Shown here: piece after piece, positions 7,141 through 23,983 of the stretch
How the letters are laid out: each line of letters starts with the position of its first letter
Position numbering within the stretch: position 1 is the first letter of the stretch
Source of the DNA: a virus
Reading direction: 5' to 3' (one strand)
Virus record (IMG/VR): IMGVR_UViG_3300028548_002164
Location: 1-25,573 of that record
DNA: 25,573 nucleotides
The notes under the pieces: generated by a model
Databases searched by the model: none
Seen by the model: the letters and a program-made list of their open reading frames with translations, nothing else
Told to the model about the DNA's origin: nothing
Translations under genes and position numbers: made by a program

Positions 7141-8346
7141 ATGGGATTACTGGATAACTTTGGCAGTAAAGTAGGCACTTATTTAGGTGATAAAGAAAAC
7201 CTTCTTAATCTAGCTTCTGGCTTTGCCAGCATGAGTGGTAATCCAAACACCGCAAGCATTATGGCAGGTATTCAAAGTCAAAAAGCATCGTTACTAAAAA
7301 GGCGTGATGCTAAAGCCGCACAAGATTTAGCCACAAGTCAGGCAACAGGTCAAAGAAATAAAACGGCTGCCATGCTTATAGCTAAAGGTGGAAAATACGC
7401 AGAAATAGGCAATCAACTACAAAATGGTTCAATAACTTTTGAACAAGCTAGAGATGATTATCAAACTCTAAGTAAATTTGATATGGAGCAAGGTGTCAAA
7501 AAACCTCCTGTAACTTACAGTATGCTTCCATTTACAGAAGCTGTAAGGCTTGGGTTAGACCCATCAATTCCGCGTCAGGTAAGTAGTGATGGTAAAATTA
7601 TGCCAATTAATAGTGGCAGTGGTGGGCCTAACATTGACATTACAAATAATGCTGCTCCTATTGGAGATAAACTTACTAATACTGCTGATGAACAACAATT
7701 TAAAGAAATTGGTTTGGGTTCTGGTCGATCTGTTAATTCACTGGCGTCTACTTATGAATCTTCAAGAGCATCACTAAAGCAAATTGATTTATTATCCCAA
7801 GTCGGGTCAATAATGGATAATAGTTCTTCATTGCCTCCAGCTATGTTAAATATGCTTCCCGAAGGCTTTGGTAGTAGCCCATTAGATGCGTATCGTGCTG
7901 TTGCTAATGGTGTAGCCCAAGGGATGTATGTTCCTGGTTCTGGTACACAAACAGAAAATGACTTTAGAGTATTATTGTCACGCGCTGGTAGTGCGAGCAT
8001 GACTTCTGATGCCAGAATACTGATTCAAAAAGGGCTTAGAGCAGCAACTCAAAGAAAAATGGATTTAGCAGCAGCAGCACAGGCATATCAAATAAATGCC
8101 AACCCAGACACAAGAAAAATTTACCAAGACGCAGTTAAAGAAATTCAAGATAGACCATTATTCTCACAAGAAGAAAGAAATTTACTTAATTCTTTTGGGC
8201 CTACGTTTGACTTTAGTAAATTACCAAAGCCTCAACAAGTTTATGCTTCTCAGTTATCTGATAAAAATGCAAAGGCATTTCTTACTATGCCTAAAGATAT
8301 GCAAGCTAAACTATATGCAGCGTATTTGGAAGATAAGGTAAATTAA
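7141..8346 (+). CDS. Putative internal virion/ejection protein
   Basis: A 401-residue protein starting MGLLDNFGSKVGTYLGDKENLLNLASGFASMSG, with a strong GGAGGT ribosome binding site. The N-terminal ~100 residues look helical and Ala/Gln/Lys-rich. At ~255-290 is MYVPGSGTQTENDFRVLLSRAGS, a motif found in phage internal-protein clusters (GS(G/A)(Q/T)xS(D/E)xD…). No enzyme motif is visible; in particular I see no lysozyme or transglycosylase signature. It lies directly between two other ejection-like proteins with 0-2 bp spacing. The assignment is mainly from context. Confidence 0.5.
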   Translation: MGLLDNFGSKVGTYLGDKENLLNLASGFASMSGNPNTASIMAGIQSQKASLLKRRDAKAAQDLATSQATGQRNKTAAMLIAKGGKYAEIGNQLQNGSITFEQARDDYQTLSKFDMEQGVKKPPVTYSMLPFTEAVRLGLDPSIPRQVSSDGKIMPINSGSGGPNIDITNNAAPIGDKLTNTADEQQFKEIGLGSGRSVNSLASTYESSRASLKQIDLLSQVGSIMDNSSSLPPAMLNMLPEGFGSSPLDAYRAVANGVAQGMYVPGSGTQTENDFRVLLSRAGSASMTSDARILIQKGLRAATQRKMDLAAAAQAYQINANPDTRKIYQDAVKEIQDRPLFSQEERNLLNSFGPTFDFSKLPKPQQVYASQLSDKNAKAFLTMPKDMQAKLYAAYLEDKVN

Positions 8347-10569
8347 ATGGCTGATTTGAGTGCTGGTGAACAAGTAATTTTTGATGAATATTTTGCTAAT
8401 AATTCTAATGGAGGGTTAACCGCAGATCAGTCTTTTGATCAGGAAATGGAAAAGCAAGATAATCGCGGAAGCATTGAAAAGGGAGTTGATGCTGTTGTTA
8501 GTGCTGTTGGTTCTGCTGCTGATTGGGTTACTGGTGCTAATACAGAACCACAAATACCAAAACTAAGTGATTTAGGCGTAAACAAATTAGCCACTAGCAA
8601 AGCTGGAAAATCTTTAATTATGGGGGTTCTTGCCTCATCTTCTGATGATGATCGTATTAAAAAAGGATTTCAGCAAGCGATACCTGATGCTGAATTTAGC
8701 CAAGACAGTTTTGGTAACTTAGTTGTAACAGCCGCAACTAGCAGAAATGAGAAGGGTCAACCTCAAACATATCAAAGGTTTTACCCTAACCCACAAGGCG
8801 CAGATTTGGCTACAGCATATAATGTTTCCAGCATTGCCTCATTAGCCGTACCTATACAAAAATTTGTAGGTGGCACAGGATATACTGCCGCAGCATTAAC
8901 TGGTGGCATTGAGGGCGGTTTGCTAGAAGCGTTTTCATCATACTTGGCTAAAGATAAATACAATGTAATGGAAGTGCCAAAGACTGCGCTTGGAACAATA
9001 ATAGCCAAGCCATTTGGTGACTTATTAGGAGCAGCTTTTAATAAAGTTAAAGAAATAGTAAATAGAGCAAAGTTGGGCGATATGCCTACTGGCGCAGCAG
9101 AGCAAGAGATTGCTGACGCTTTAGTAGAAGAAGGGTTAAACCCTGACGATGTATTAGACTCAGTTTATCGTGAAATGAACGTAGATATTGGCTCTGGCTC
9201 TACTCCTGCTGAAACTGCAAGGTACAGGACTGCACAGGCATTAAACCCACCTGTTCCAATGACAAGAGGTGATGTGTCAAATGACAAAAGCCGTGGACTA
9301 CTTGAAGACTCTATTTTATATGGAAATTATGGCGATTCAGCAAGGTCGCAAATGGAAGGGATTAGGGCAGATCAAAATATAGCCATTGAGCAGAATTTAG
9401 GAAATATTAAACAGCAGATGGCAGGCCCAGAAGGGCAAGTAATAGATAAAAGGGTAGGTGGCGCACAGGCACAAGCAGAACTTGTTGCTTCAAAGGCTGC
9501 ACAAGGCACTGCAAGGGATGCGGCATACGATACTGCAAGAGGAAGTGAAGCGTTTATTGACCCAGATAACGGAAGCCAAATAGCAGGCACAATATTACAG
9601 AATGTTAATGCTAACTTTAGCGATATTAGTGCGCCTACTGCATATCGTTTATTCAATAAAGAACTAGCACCATTGCTTCAAGAAGGTCAGTCTTTAAGGT
9701 CAATATTTGAAGCTAGAAAACTTCTTAGCAGTCATGCTAATCAAGCAGGCCCAGAAGGTGCTGCTGCTGCTGCAATGAACCGACAATTAGATCAGCAATT
9801 AGTAGACCAATCAAATGACTTGCTCTTGTATGGGGATTCTGACTCTGTAGCCACTTGGCTTGATGCTATAAGTCAACACAAAGACTTTATGAAAAAGTGG
9901 GAAGATAACGGCATATTAAAAGAATTAACATCTAAAAGTATCCGTGACGGGGAAATGGTCTTAAATAAAGACCCTACTGATGTAGCTAACGCTATATTTA
10001 GTATTGCTTTAAACCCAAATAAAACAGGCATGACTCGTAATCTTATTACTTTAAAAAAGGAACTTTCCTCAGAAACATGGAACGGATTGCGCCAAGAGTT
10101 TTTCATTAAACTATCTGAAAAAATGATGAAAACAAATGGTGATTTAGCTGGTCAAACATTTGCTACGTCATGGAAAGCAGTAAAGTCTAATAAGACGCTT
10201 GTTAATACCCTATTTACAAAAGAAGAAAGATCTAAAATTGATGCTTTAGCGTCTACTGCAATGAGAATTAGTAGTAAGGCAGCAAACTACTCCAACTCAG
10301 CTAATAGTCTTTTAAATGGGCTTAAAGGGGTTATCAATATGTTTGGCCCCACACCTGTTAGCAGGGGTGCTGGTAGCTTGCCAATCGTAACTCAGGCAAT
10401 GAGTGCTAGTGCCAAAGGTTCAATGGCACAAAGCCCACTACCCAAAAGGCCAAGTGCAATGAGACAGTGGCTAACTACAACGGCTGGCATTACAGTAGGT
10501 GCAGAAACAGTTGAAGGTACAACCAACGCTCTGCTAGGTAATTCAGCATCATCTGGAGAAAATAAGTAA
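8347..10569 (+). CDS. Large internal virion/DNA transfer protein
   Basis: At 740 residues, the largest protein of the ejection group. It opens acidic and Asn-rich (GEQVIFDEYFANN), followed by Ala-rich helical sequence. At ~300-340, PVPMTRGDVSNDKSRGLLEDSILYGNYG…M is a motif I recognise from large phage DNA-transfer proteins ('pvpltrGd.tgd…lED…G.yG'). Residues ~345-560 are helical with AAQGTARDAAYD. Gly/Ala-rich segments and two mildly hydrophobic stretches (AALTGGIEGGLLEAF, AGITVGAETVEG) lie at either end. A role comparable to P22 gp16 or T7 gp15/gp16 is inferred; no peptidoglycan-cleaving domain is apparent. Its stop overlaps the portal start (TAATG). Confidence 0.55.
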   Translation: MADLSAGEQVIFDEYFANNSNGGLTADQSFDQEMEKQDNRGSIEKGVDAVVSAVGSAADWVTGANTEPQIPKLSDLGVNKLATSKAGKSLIMGVLASSSDDDRIKKGFQQAIPDAEFSQDSFGNLVVTAATSRNEKGQPQTYQRFYPNPQGADLATAYNVSSIASLAVPIQKFVGGTGYTAAALTGGIEGGLLEAFSSYLAKDKYNVMEVPKTALGTIIAKPFGDLLGAAFNKVKEIVNRAKLGDMPTGAAEQEIADALVEEGLNPDDVLDSVYREMNVDIGSGSTPAETARYRTAQALNPPVPMTRGDVSNDKSRGLLEDSILYGNYGDSARSQMEGIRADQNIAIEQNLGNIKQQMAGPEGQVIDKRVGGAQAQAELVASKAAQGTARDAAYDTARGSEAFIDPDNGSQIAGTILQNVNANFSDISAPTAYRLFNKELAPLLQEGQSLRSIFEARKLLSSHANQAGPEGAAAAAMNRQLDQQLVDQSNDLLLYGDSDSVATWLDAISQHKDFMKKWEDNGILKELTSKSIRDGEMVLNKDPTDVANAIFSIALNPNKTGMTRNLITLKKELSSETWNGLRQEFFIKLSEKMMKTNGDLAGQTFATSWKAVKSNKTLVNTLFTKEERSKIDALASTAMRISSKAANYSNSANSLLNGLKGVINMFGPTPVSRGAGSLPIVTQAMSASAKGSMAQSPLPKRPSAMRQWLTTTAGITVGAETVEGTTNALLGNSASSGENK

Positions 10570-13977: not shown

Positions 13978-14931
13978 ATGGCACAACCCACCAACACGTT
14001 CGATACATATGATTCTAAGGCCCTAAAAGAGGACGTTTCTTCCGTCATCTATAACGTCGACCCCAGTGAAGTACCTCTGCTTAGTTCGATTCCCAAAGTT
14101 TCAGCAACTAACACTTTGCACCAGTGGCAAACCGATACTTTACGTCCTGGAGTTTCAACAAACAAAAATATCGAAGGTGACGCAACAACCGCAGAGCAAC
14201 GAACCTCTGTTGCTCGTATTCACAACTTCACTCAGATATTTAAAAATGCTGTCACAATTTCTGGCACTGATCAGAGCGTAACCAATATCGGTTATGGTCA
14301 ACAAATGGCGCATGAAATAATCAAAGTCGGCAAAGAGCAAAAGACAGACATTGAATCTAGTATTTTTGCCAATCTCGCGTTTGCTTCTGGTAATGCAACC
14401 ACTGCGCGTGTAATGGGTGGATTAACGTCTTACATTAAAACCAATGTGACCAACATCACGGGCGGTGGTGGTGCTAACCCAACGGGAACTGTTCCTGGTG
14501 CAACTGCTCGGACAAATGGAGCCTTGACTGTGTTTAATCAGACTAAGTTTGATGCTTGTATGCAGCAAATTTGGACCTCAGGGGGCACTCCCGATACTGT
14601 ATATCTAACCAGTGGACAAATGCAGAGGGCACTTTCATTTGTGGGCAACAATAATGAACGCGCTACTGCTCAAAATGGCAAGGTTTCACAGCTACTTTCG
14701 ATCTATATGACGCCCTGGGGTTCTGTGACGTTCACTCCGTCGCGTCATCAGGAAAGCAGAAGTGTGTTCATCTTACAGAGCGATATGCTGGCATTAGCAT
14801 CATTACGTCCGATGAAAACTGAGGAACTTGCTAAAAATGGGGATAATGTCACGAGACAATGCTTAACGGAGGCCACTTTGGTCGTTCGTAATGAGAAATC
14901 ATTAGGATTGGTTGCTGACTGTTCAGCTTAA
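13978..14931 (+). CDS. Major capsid protein, SU10-like (DUF5309 family)
   Basis: A 317-residue protein with an AAAGGA ribosome binding site. The start TFDTYDSKALKEDVSSVIYNVDPSEVPLLSSI and then NTLHQWQTDTLRP are the hallmark of the DUF5309/SU10 major capsid family, an HK97-fold group found in marine and enteric podoviruses. Further family features are FKNAVTISGTDQSV, QMAHEIIKVGKEQKTDIES, and DTVYLTSGQMQRALSF near residue 200. The C-terminal ERATAQNGKVSQLLSIYMTPWGSVTFTPSRH also fits. It is preceded by scaffold and followed by a strong terminator, as expected for a highly expressed capsid gene. Confidence 0.9.
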   Translation: MAQPTNTFDTYDSKALKEDVSSVIYNVDPSEVPLLSSIPKVSATNTLHQWQTDTLRPGVSTNKNIEGDATTAEQRTSVARIHNFTQIFKNAVTISGTDQSVTNIGYGQQMAHEIIKVGKEQKTDIESSIFANLAFASGNATTARVMGGLTSYIKTNVTNITGGGGANPTGTVPGATARTNGALTVFNQTKFDACMQQIWTSGGTPDTVYLTSGQMQRALSFVGNNNERATAQNGKVSQLLSIYMTPWGSVTFTPSRHQESRSVFILQSDMLALASLRPMKTEELAKNGDNVTRQCLTEATLVVRNEKSLGLVADCSA

Positions 14932-18920: not shown

Positions 18921-19928
18921 CTATTTTAGAGTAGGAGTGACCTTTACTTTTCGATCATAGATTGCCACTTGCGCCTGAGTTTTGTGACCAGAAAATTCTT
19001 GCTTGTTTCCCTCGTAGTCAGAAATGGCTTTTGCTTTAATATCGTGAAAAGTAAAATCTATACTTAATTCACCATCATATTTAAGCTTTGCTTCTTTTCT
19101 GGCTTTTAATGCCCATACTTGTAATGTGTCTTGTGCTGGACGATGCCCTTTCTTGTTACAAAACACTAATTCAAAATTAGTTACTTCTTGTACTGACAAA
19201 GCCAGGTCAACCGCAGCCCTTAATCGTGGGTTCCATTCTTTGATTTGCTTCTTGCCTGTTTTACCCTGTCGAATAAAAATACCTTCTTTTCTTAATTGGC
19301 TGCGCTTTAGACTCCATACATCACCTTGTCTAGCTGCACAGCAATAGCTTATTTCCATTGCCGCAGCCAATAAAGGCCACTTAATATAAGCCTCTGCCAA
19401 CCAAAGGAAGTATTCCCAATCCTCAATATAGCGATCACGGGCAGGCTCTTTAAAGTCTTTAACACCTATAGCTGGGTTTATTTGAACTTTGCCGTTTTCA
19501 TAGGCCCATGCAAAAACTGTGCTTAAAAATGATCTTTCACGATTGGCTTGAGTAGTTACGCCACCTTCTTTGCGCTTATCCATGTATTGTCTGATATGGT
19601 GCGGCTTAATGCGGTGACGATTCATTTGACCAAAACCAGATATAAACTTTTCAGCGTATCGCGCATAATCTATTTTAGTTCTTGGCATTAAGTCTCTGTG
19701 GTTTACGCTTGCCATGTACCCACGGATAACTTCAGCGAACGCACCTGTTGGTTCTTCATGCAGCAATCTAGCCGATTGATACTTTGCTAGGATTATTTCT
19801 TTAGGCTCAGTTAACTTTCCCAGACGCACACAGCCGCCAGCCTTGGGTCTGTACTCAAATGCCGACTTACCTAAATAACATCTGGTTGGTAGCCAATCTG
19901 GGCCGTTAATTCTTTTTCTAGGAGCCAT
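18921..19928 (-). CDS. int: Tyrosine-type site-specific integrase
   Basis: A 335-residue tyrosine recombinase that should integrate the phage at host tRNA-His. The N-terminus (~1-60) is an arm-DNA-binding-like region. Residues ~63-160 are the SAM-like core-binding domain (FAEVIRGYMASV…ANRERSFLSTVFAWAYENGKVQINPAIGV). Catalytic residues visible are R200 (CCAARQGDVWSL), K223 (QGKTGKK), H295 (FHDIKAK), H315 (FSGHKT) and the nucleophile Y324 (AIYDRK). The second conserved Arg (normally HxxR) is Lys298, a substitution that I recall from a subgroup with the same FHDIKAK…SGHKT…YDRK ending. The start follows the DUF4224 stop without a gap (TAAATG), and attP lies just past the stop codon. Confidence 0.92.
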   Translation of the reverse strand: MAPRKRINGPDWLPTRCYLGKSAFEYRPKAGGCVRLGKLTEPKEIILAKYQSARLLHEEPTGAFAEVIRGYMASVNHRDLMPRTKIDYARYAEKFISGFGQMNRHRIKPHHIRQYMDKRKEGGVTTQANRERSFLSTVFAWAYENGKVQINPAIGVKDFKEPARDRYIEDWEYFLWLAEAYIKWPLLAAAMEISYCCAARQGDVWSLKRSQLRKEGIFIRQGKTGKKQIKEWNPRLRAAVDLALSVQEVTNFELVFCNKKGHRPAQDTLQVWALKARKEAKLKYDGELSIDFTFHDIKAKAISDYEGNKQEFSGHKTQAQVAIYDRKVKVTPTLK

Positions 19929-20150
19929 TTATAAACCCATTGAGCTAAAGTCTGGTTCATCATTATGCGCCAAGGCTTCATTAAACCGCAAATGTGTGGG
20001 ATTGTTAAAAGAATACCAGGTAACGTGAGGCGCACCATTAGCGTCTTTAACAAAGAATATGCCATGTTCAGTTAACACTTTGCATTGCTTGGCTTGGGCT
20101 TTATATCCCGTTACTCGTTCAAGCTCTTGTTCGCTCATTAAATCATTCAT
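19929..20150 (-). CDS. DUF4224 protein, possible directionality factor
   Basis: A 73-residue protein directly upstream of integrase (no gap). Residues 5-45, MSEQELERVTGYKAQAKQCKVLTEHGIFFVKDANGAPHVTW, match the DUF4224 pattern (LsexELxELTGyxxxxxQxxwLxxxGIxfxxxxxGxPxV). This family is typically encoded next to phage integrases. An excisionase-like role is often assumed from position, and no other excisionase candidate is evident here. AAGGAAA upstream of the ATG is a good ribosome binding site. A second Met at residue 5 would also fit the domain start. Confidence 0.75.
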   Translation of the reverse strand: MNDLMSEQELERVTGYKAQAKQCKVLTEHGIFFVKDANGAPHVTWYSFNNPTHLRFNEALAHNDEPDFSSMGL

Positions 20151-22103: not shown

Positions 22104-22451
22104 TTAATACTCCGAGTGTTTTTCTGCGTGATATTGCAAAGTTAGCTCTGGGTGGTGGTCTTTAAAATAAACAGCAGCGCACTTAGTAATAACGTCTTGT
22201 GAAAGTTGTTGTGCTTCATCGGGAAAGCGGAAAGCTAAATATATGACACGCATCTGTTCGTCCTCATCTCCATACTGGAAAAGGTCGTCAACATGATAAT
22301 GGGTCGTTCCAATCTTGATATAGCTATCATAAAGAAGATCATCTTTTAGCTCGTTGAACGCATCTTCAAGAATGTAGTCAGGTGCTTCAATAACGTCTGT
22401 GTGTGCGTTAATTTGGGCGGTTACATGACAGTGGTTGGTTAATGAGTTCAT
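22104..22451 (-). CDS. Hypothetical protein (115 aa), first gene of the leftward early operon
   Basis: AAGGAAA lies 8 bp before the ATG. The acidic product begins MNSLTNHCHVTAQINAHTD and continues with LEDAFNELKDDLLYDSYIKIGTTHYHVDDLFQYGDEDEQMRVI…FRFPDE. It ends His/Glu-rich (YFKDHHPELTLQYHAEKHSEY). His residues are unusually frequent, but no known metal-site spacing is seen. No family is recognised. As the first gene of the leftward early unit it may act early after infection. Confidence 0.6.
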   Translation of the reverse strand: MNSLTNHCHVTAQINAHTDVIEAPDYILEDAFNELKDDLLYDSYIKIGTTHYHVDDLFQYGDEDEQMRVIYLAFRFPDEAQQLSQDVITKCAAVYFKDHHPELTLQYHAEKHSEY

Positions 22452-22606: not shown

Positions 22607-22813
22607 TTATTTATTAGGTGGGCCTTGAGGACACTGTTCGTTTAAATTATTGCCAAAGTTCGTTTTCATGAACTCAAACATTACACCCATTGGGCCATTC
22701 TTGGGTCTGGTGTTAGATGAGTGATCGGTGTGAATCAGCCACCATTTATACACAGACTCACGCATCCACGCTAACGCCCGATTTTTATTATTGTTTAATT
22801 CTGAAACTAGCAT
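22607..22813 (-). CDS. Hypothetical protein (68 aa) downstream of repressor
   Basis: Starts 1 bp after the repressor stop; an in-frame TTG at 22840 would overlap the repressor by 26 bp and is less likely. The product begins MLVSELNNNKNRALAWMRES, then VYKWWLIHTDHSSNTRPKNGP, and ends CPQGPPNK. Trp and Asn are frequent. No family is recognised. Because it lies in the repressor transcript it should be expressed in the lysogen, so an exclusion or repressor-modulating role is conceivable. Confidence 0.5.
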   Translation of the reverse strand: MLVSELNNNKNRALAWMRESVYKWWLIHTDHSSNTRPKNGPMGVMFEFMKTNFGNNLNEQCPQGPPNK

Positions 22814-22814
22814 T

Positions 22815-23444
22815 TCATTTCTCTGATTGATAAGAACCAACTACAGTTCCTATAATCCTGGTTGATGATGAAAACTCTTTTATAGGATAGCGATCATTCA
22901 AAGGTTTTAAATGTTCAACACCACCTGTTATAACGTATTCCCGAAAAAAAGAACTTAAATTTTCAGTATCTATCGCCACAATGCGATCTCCACTTACTGG
23001 CGTTTTGTCTGGGTCAACGAAAATTAAAACACCTAGCGGATACGATCTGCCATTGCTGGCAGTCATTACTTCATCTTGCACTTCAAGCGCAAAAGAATTT
23101 TCCGATAAGTCGTATGGGCATCCTACCCAGTGCTCACTCTCTAACATAAATTTTCCCTCTATTAAGGCTGATAGGGAATTCCAGCTTACCACGGGGGCTT
23201 TCCGAGTGATCGGATTTAGCTTTAATCCCCCCCTCGATTCGAGCGCATTATTTGATAATAATTGCTCTATGGTGCATCCAAAAGCCTTAGCTATGGACAC
23301 TAACCCTGCCGCTTTAACTTCTGCGGTAGGATCAGTTTCTAGTTGAGCAACCCTTGCTCTTGATATTGAGGTTCGATTAGCAAAATCTTGTTGTGACCAA
23401 CCTTGATCTTTACGCAATTTTTTTACTCGCTCGCCTAAATTCAT
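22815..23444 (-). CDS. CI/C2-type repressor with degenerate S24 peptidase domain
   Basis: A 209-residue protein. Residues ~4-62 are an XRE helix-turn-helix (LRKDQGWSQQDFANRTSISRARVAQLET). Residues ~82-205 are the LexA/S24-like domain: APVVSWNSLS, FALEVQDEVMTAS, GVLIFVDPDKTPVSGDRIVAI, LKPLNDRYP, IIGTVVGSY. In active relatives the second segment reads FALxVxGDSM; here the position of the catalytic Ser is V126 and the preceding GD is DE. The catalytic Lys (TFKQYVIxGG-like) aligns with R168, and the usual cleavage dipeptide after SWVQ (Ala-Gly) is L91-S92. The fold for dimerisation is kept, self-cleavage probably lost. Divergent from the Cro-like gene, it should hold the lysogenic state. Confidence 0.85.
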   Translation of the reverse strand: MNLGERVKKLRKDQGWSQQDFANRTSISRARVAQLETDPTAEVKAAGLVSIAKAFGCTIEQLLSNNALESRGGLKLNPITRKAPVVSWNSLSALIEGKFMLESEHWVGCPYDLSENSFALEVQDEVMTASNGRSYPLGVLIFVDPDKTPVSGDRIVAIDTENLSSFFREYVITGGVEHLKPLNDRYPIKEFSSSTRIIGTVVGSYQSEK

Positions 23445-23465
23445 TTTTTTGTAACCTTAAAATTT

Positions 23466-23493
23466 ATATTAAATGTCGCAAGTAATCTTACAA
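23466..23493 (-). promoter_or_regulatory. Probable repressor maintenance promoter
   Basis: On the minus strand TTGTAA (23493-23488), 16 bp, then TAATAT (23471-23466), about 20 bp before the repressor ATG. AAGG is the only ribosome binding element, followed by a run of A. Moderate match to sigma70 boxes. Confidence 0.5.
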
Positions 23494-23512
23494 TCTAAAT
23501 GTGTGAGTTTGA

Positions 23513-23529
23513 TGTCATTTTGGTTGACA
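23513..23529. promoter_or_regulatory. 17-bp operator-like inverted repeat
   Basis: TGTCA (23513-23517), 7 bp, TGACA (23525-23529) in the repressor/Cro intergenic region. Length and half-site form fit operators of CI/Cro proteins. Its right half is part of a TTGACA -35-like box. Confidence 0.5.
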
Positions 23530-23571
23530 GTTTTCTATTAATTTTAGATAGAAGGTTGACATTTATAATGT
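23522..23571 (+). promoter_or_regulatory. Rightward early promoter region
   Basis: GGTTGACA occurs twice (23522-23529 and 23554-23561), and TATAAT lies at 23564-23569 inside the palindrome ACATTTATAATGT (23559-23571). The ideal 17-bp pairing of a TTGACA with TATAAT is not present: the first is 34 bp away and the second too close. The first may use GATAGA (23547-23552, 17 bp away), or TATAAT may work with a poor -35. This is a promoter region with uncertain boxes. Confidence 0.5.
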
Positions 23572-23591
23572 GAGTAGACTAACATTAAGAA

Positions 23592-23789
23592 ATGAAAGAA
23601 CTACCAGCAATACCAATTACTGATCTAATAGACGCATTTGGGACTAAAACCAAAATAGGCGAGGCTATTGGAGTTACGCATAGTGCAATCTGTCATTGGG
23701 GTGATTTTGTTCCAGCAACAAGACTTCATCAAATGCACTATTTATTGAATCAAATAAATCTAATTGAACAGTCAAGGACGGACATTTAA
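23592..23789 (+). CDS. Cro-like repressor (P22-Cro type)
   Basis: A 65-residue protein divergent from the repressor gene. ITDLIDAFGTKTKIGEAIGVTHSAICHWGDFVPATRLHQMHYLL follows the P22 Cro pattern (DvIDhFGTqxxvAxALGIsxxAVSxWxxxIPxxxAyxLe), with the helix-turn-helix at about residues 20-40. It should bind the early operators and turn off repressor synthesis during lytic growth. Its stop overlaps the next start (TAATG). Confidence 0.8.
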   Translation: MKELPAIPITDLIDAFGTKTKIGEAIGVTHSAICHWGDFVPATRLHQMHYLLNQINLIEQSRTDI

Positions 23790-23983
23790 TGAAAGATAAA
23801 TTGACCAACCCAGTATCAACCTCATTTGATGATGAACTGTACGCGTTTGCAAAAAGAGATGCGGAATTATTAGGTCTTGATGTGTCGTCATACATACGGG
23901 CCACCCTCATAGAAAAACGTGAAAAGCGATTCAATGAACTTAGGGTATTCCAAGACTTAATTAAGATTCAAGAAATAGAATAA
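23789..23983 (+). CDS. Small ribbon-helix-helix-like protein downstream of Cro
   Basis: A 64-residue protein. NPVSTSFDDELYAFAKRDAELLGLDVSSYIRATLIEKREKR has the strand-helix-helix pattern of CopG/Arc-type DNA-binding proteins. It is placed where lambdoid phages carry the cII-type activator; whether it regulates lysogeny, as Arc/Mnt do in P22, or the initiator gene is open. It is coupled to Cro by TAATG. Confidence 0.65.
   Translation: MKDKLTNPVSTSFDDELYAFAKRDAELLGLDVSSYIRATLIEKREKRFNELRVFQDLIKIQEIE

Follow-up and report, generated by a model that had tools for sequence, protein, structure and literature searches.

We conclude from sequence comparison that a temperate phage, represented by a 25.6-kb virus record (the window, the whole stretch of 25,573 nucleotides analysed), encodes a CI (lysogeny) repressor that very probably acts as a pseudo-protease, whose self-cleavage RecA would be unable to trigger. 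The N-terminal helix-turn-helix (HTH) domain is expected to bind the cI-cro operators, while the S24-fold domain would serve only dimerisation and cooperativity. Because the Ala-Gly scissile bond and both catalytic residues, the Ser nucleophile and the Lys general base, have been replaced, RecA filaments would probably not bring about self-cleavage, so at the repressor step the lysogen would be shielded from SOS signalling by the host. Induction would proceed through inactivation of the intact repressor or, rarely, because repression is lost spontaneously.

Naturally uncleavable S24 repressors are already known (Synechocystis LexA, mEpimmI, N15). As far as the literature searched shows, the new element is the complete three-part loss with surviving intermediates, which apparently evolved stepwise. 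Environmental prophages are usually assumed to be SOS-responsive; here the three self-cleavage elements have all been lost, and the loss fixed, in a well-sampled phage family. Phages of this kind would escape prophage surveys that rely on mitomycin.

Repressor gene and switch layout

The structural genes of the window lie on the plus strand, and an integrase with a DUF4224 excisionase lies on the minus strand. A lambda/P22-type switch was found at 22.6-24.0 kb. The genes and domains concerned are as follows.

18921-19928, minus strand: tyrosine integrase, which marks the phage as temperate
19929-20150, minus strand: excisionase-like gene (DUF4224)
22815-23444, minus strand: cI-like repressor of 209 aa, S24-type, with the self-cleavage elements replaced (ORF, Pfam, phmmer, alignment, AlphaFold2, Foldseek)
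23247-23444, minus strand: N-terminal HTH domain, residues 1-66 (Pfam HTH_19/HTH_3 above cut-off)
22827-23195, minus strand: S24-fold C-terminal domain, residues 84-206 (Pfam Peptidase_S24; Foldseek)
23445-23591, strand not applicable: cI-cro intergenic switch region
23592-23789, plus strand: P22-Cro-family gene (Pfam P22_Cro, 37.8 bits against a cut-off of 30.2)

The repressor ORF is a real gene encoded on the minus strand; the first-pass annotation had left the strand unstated. Pfam Peptidase_S24 scored 42 bits on the protein against a cut-off of 23.3, and in phmmer almost its whole length aligned with lambda CI (3bdn, E 3e-11); it also aligned with lambda C-domain structures. The AlphaFold2 model, made from an alignment of 34 sequences, had a mean pLDDT of 85.5, with low confidence at residues 69-76, probably a flexible linker. 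Using this model, Foldseek returned lambda CI first and then LexA and UmuD', and the fit to the lambda CI C-domain (1f39/1kca) had a TM of 0.87 and an rmsd of 1.3-1.5 Å. The model thus indicates that the S24 fold is retained. That annotation had described the S24-fold segments as well kept and had proposed a family HMM and a predicted structure as checks, and both agreed with its description.

By fold and context, the protein is a full-length lambda/P22-type CI repressor; a divergent cro-like gene, an intergenic switch region and an integrase are present in the same genome. The intergenic region contains a sigma70-like promoter pointing to cro (TTGACA-18-TAACAT, 23556-23585), and a search of the switch region for operators as perfect inverted repeats gave none that was conserved. 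The P22-Cro-like gene is divergent from cI and its distances track those of cI (Mantel rho 0.86, 29 loci); it is followed by a small putative ribbon-helix-helix gene and then by O-like and P-like replication genes. Lambda CI and P22 C2 likewise have an HTH and an S24-fold C-domain, a divergent Cro and the same switch layout, at about 25-34% identity, but their self-cleavage Ala-Gly, Ser and Lys are missing from the window repressor.

Megablast of the whole window against phages gave no match, and neither did a search for relatives in a species-genome collection. The major capsid protein (13978-14931, plus strand) was closest to that of Octadecabacter Antarctic DB virus 2 (49%), unlike the integrase and the repressor, which were closest to those of gammaproteobacteria phages.

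Self-cleavage residues and their loss among relatives

The active-site residues were assigned from sequence alignments. Their counterparts in the window repressor, each placed by phmmer and alignments, are listed below.

23169-23174, minus strand: L91-S92 (codons CTA TCA), counterpart of the Ala-Gly cleavage bond (lambda A111-G112)
23067-23069, minus strand: V126 (codon GTA), counterpart of lambda CI catalytic Ser149
22941-22943, minus strand: R168 (codon CGG), counterpart of lambda CI catalytic Lys192

An alignment of 19 sequences (P22 C2, 434, lambda, IME307, VP58.5 and others) agreed with the phmmer columns, and its motifs changed from WVSAG to WNSLS, from GDSM to DEVM and from FKK to FRE. 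Every sequence feature of a self-cleaving S24 peptidase, namely the catalytic Ser, the catalytic Lys and the Ala-Gly bond, is absent from the protein. The same three changes had been pointed out in the first-pass annotation, and they were borne out by phmmer to lambda CI, by the 19-sequence alignment and by the codons.

Relatives were gathered by IMG/VR scans, from 100 down to about 60% identity to the window repressor. The clade of the window contains 33 distinct proteins (support 100/100), and the three self-cleavage elements are missing in 33/33. L91 and R168 are invariant throughout, and residue 126 is V (28) or L (5). Chance or sequencing error as the source of the replacements was ruled out, as they are common to all 33 distinct proteins. 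Residue 92 is P, S, K, E, V, R, I or A and is the 6th most variable of the 126 C-domain positions (2.37 bits against a median of 0.83, 33 proteins); such variability, together with the invariance of L91 and R168, is what one would expect of a bond that has ceased to be a substrate. The dN/dS of cI pairs was 0.03-0.19, which indicates that the gene is maintained. Judged from these sequences, the former scissile position is released from constraint and the protein itself is maintained. Since the three-part loss is real and clade-wide, and the gene is under purifying selection, RecA-stimulated self-cleavage of this repressor is very unlikely.

We see little chance that a relocated nucleophile or base still sustains autocleavage. 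S130, T128, C109 and S165 do lie in or near the relevant segments, and S165 is nearly clade-specific (32/33), but S130 is not conserved (N in L044), T128 and C109 are common also in homologues with an intact dyad, no new invariant Lys occurs among the 33 clade proteins, and the Ala-Gly bond is likewise lost. A defective phage whose repressor is vestigial or in decay could show a similar loss of catalytic residues, but this reading is hardly tenable in view of the low dN/dS, the invariant L91 and R168, and the reading frames that are open throughout about 50 distinct proteins.

The sister clade comprises 14 proteins, and its joint support with the clade of the window is 87/84. Its members differ in what they have kept, as follows.

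L159/L231 and L162: A-G, Ser and Lys intact
L230, L232, L235, L237 and L239: V-S or V-N, with Ser and Lys
L074/L234 and L158: L-S, with Ser and Lys
L153, L160, L241 and L244: L-S, Ser replaced by Gln, Lys kept
L229: L-N, Ser replaced by Leu, Lys kept

By parsimony, Ser was lost three times and Lys once. When a single Ser loss was put to the AU test, the result was borderline (p = 0.0495), and several independent Ser losses are only moderately supported by these sequences; that the Ala-Gly site was lost just once in the group was not rejected (AU test, p = 0.072). The simplest reading is that the site would have been lost first, Ser later and Lys last, with the number of events uncertain. The distant IMG/VR homologues, aligned after two HTH-only hits were set aside, had Ser and Lys in all cases and A-G in all but L074 (L-S) and L089 (A-A). 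The CI of phiHAP-1 (L069) is another partly dismantled S24 repressor: its cleavage bond reads A-A and Arg stands in place of the catalytic Lys, while Ser is kept.

Some of these states correspond to known proteins. The S24 repressor Rep021 of mEpimmI coliphage keeps its catalytic site and lacks A-G, and its lysogens are not induced by UV (PMC11893012). This is the state of L234/L158 in the sister clade; the window repressor is also S24-type and has lost the Ala-Gly bond, but is without Ser and Lys too. LexA of Synechocystis PCC 6803 lacks both Ala-Gly and the catalytic Ser (PMC7567884), which is the state of L153/L160; like the window protein it is an S24 repressor without these two elements, but it is a cellular regulator and not a phage switch. 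The gonococcal NGO1630 is without the A-G motif (PMC12186493). N15 CI was non-proteolytic in a ciprofloxacin test, and 210/271 telN phages were predicted to have a non-proteolytic CI (PMC10432266). N15-type repressors resemble, in their described behaviour, the non-proteolytic phage CI proposed here, but N15 is subject to antirepression. The relatives with partial losses make the order and the consequences of losing SOS inducibility testable on natural variants.

Routes of induction

Because the loss of self-cleavage is common to the whole family of related phages, phages of this family are probably induced by some other route. The first-pass annotation had stated that the normal RecA/SOS route would fail and that an antirepressor or another signal would be needed. 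Its first part stands in that, as predicted from the residues, this route should not work through the repressor; the alternative signal is one that we infer. The most likely inducer, put forward tentatively, would be a CI-binding phage protein of no recognised antirepressor family. No convincing member of a known antirepressor or trans-protease family was found in the records searched. The following alternatives concern induction and are compatible with a cleavage-dead repressor.

A possible but less favoured route is that SOS induces indirectly, through a LexA-controlled antirepressor encoded elsewhere in the genome that binds the uncleavable repressor. The precedent is given by the Gifsy prophages, whose repressors GfoR/GfhR/GftR are not cleaved on induction and are inactivated by LexA-controlled antirepressors (PMC3121763); moreover, the window is a fragment of an incomplete genome and small genes of no recognised family are present. 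Against this, the exact CTGT-N8-ACAG box was absent from the window, near-matches to the SOS box there numbered 8 against 10.4 expected, which is chance level, and the intergenic DNA of another eight contigs from the group (24-44 kb) contained no SOS box, this consensus being gamma-type and perhaps not that of the host. ANT, pRha and P22_AR_N domains were found in 0/13 records, Bro-N gave one sub-threshold match in 12 records, and LexA-controlled antirepressors of the Gifsy kind were not found in the window or the group records searched. The Gifsy repressors also lack a C-terminal protease domain, whereas the window repressor keeps the S24-fold domain. A near-identical contig of 31 kb encodes PAPS reductase, NinB, NinG, a ParB-methyltransferase and terminase in its right operon, with no annotated antirepressor there. 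In this contig (L249), the PAPS-reductase-like gene (7551-8498, minus strand) lies between the replication and NinB genes.

It is unlikely that the repressor is destroyed in trans by another protease, either in an ImmR/ImmA-like manner or by a protease of the host acting under some other stress. Phage peptidases that act in trans are known (PMC10432266 names them) and the probable linker at residues 69-76 would suit such a route, but Peptidase_M78 (ImmA) was found in 0/13 records, which are fragments.

Small genes flanking cI and cro

Two small genes of the switch were considered in this connection.

22607-22813, minus strand: small ORF of 68 aa directly downstream of cI, an exchanged cassette, with the motif WM..W..D..GP[PN]
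23789-23983, plus strand: small putative ribbon-helix-helix gene after cro, also an exchanged cassette (weak NikA-like match below cut-off)

On the strand of cI, the small ORF starts one base past the cI stop and is therefore expected in the lysogenic transcript, where it should be co-expressed with the repressor in the lysogen. It had no Pfam, PHROG or PADLOC hit, and its structure model was poor (pLDDT 53). Across the 47-protein group, almost all readable members have a counterpart behind cI, and none was found after the other S24 repressors examined. This gene after cI, of 66-77 aa in L010, L011, L016, L044, L152-L162 and L174-L244, is hypervariable with conserved ends (..GPP/GPN). Among close relatives in the clade of the window, the flanks were mostly 86-100% identical and the small ORF fell to 54-64%. 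Its dS was 1.1-3.4 against about 0.1 for cI, and that it is a coding gene is indicated by a dN/dS of 0.1-0.6. Pairs with cI at 97-99% had the small ORF at 48-60%, and pairs with cI at 37-60% had it at 82-93%. Over 29 loci, distances of the small ORF and of the post-cro gene barely tracked those of cI (Mantel rho 0.15-0.17 and 0.15-0.20, respectively). Both genes are, on these distances, exchanged cassettes largely independent of cI. Behind similar Cro genes, the post-cro gene takes at least two forms that look unrelated (MTEKLSN.. and MSEKYKMTVN..).

The first-pass annotation had named 22607-22813 as an antirepressor candidate. The presence of the small ORF does coincide with the lineage in which cleavage decayed (the 47-protein group), but that this ORF or the ribbon-helix-helix gene is an antirepressor which replaced SOS cleavage is improbable: both are swapped mostly without regard to cI (rho 0.15-0.20, compared with 0.86 for Cro), the small ORF is predicted to be transcribed during lysogeny, which an antirepressor would undo, and it is found also beside repressors with intact A-G, Ser and Lys (L159, L162). 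An antirepressor specific to one repressor would be expected to move together with it and to stay outside the lysogenic transcript, so the small ORF is more likely lysogeny cargo (exclusion, competition or Hex-like). Likened by position, hex of phage 434 is also a small gene at the cI end in the lysogenic transcript, and Hex protects a cleavable repressor from RecA (PMC3564112).

That cassettes are exchanged on either side of a cI-cro core which otherwise co-evolves is a lead of its own. A broader and rather speculative reading is of a metagenome-only phage lineage in which SOS self-cleavage was dismantled stepwise and a co-evolving repressor-Cro core is combined with the two interchangeable cassettes, one of which would give a swappable non-SOS induction or prophage-competition signal. 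In the left operon, the gene at 22104-22451 (minus strand, cluster C4) was also found in five other contigs of the group, and its region is sharply divergent between close relatives.
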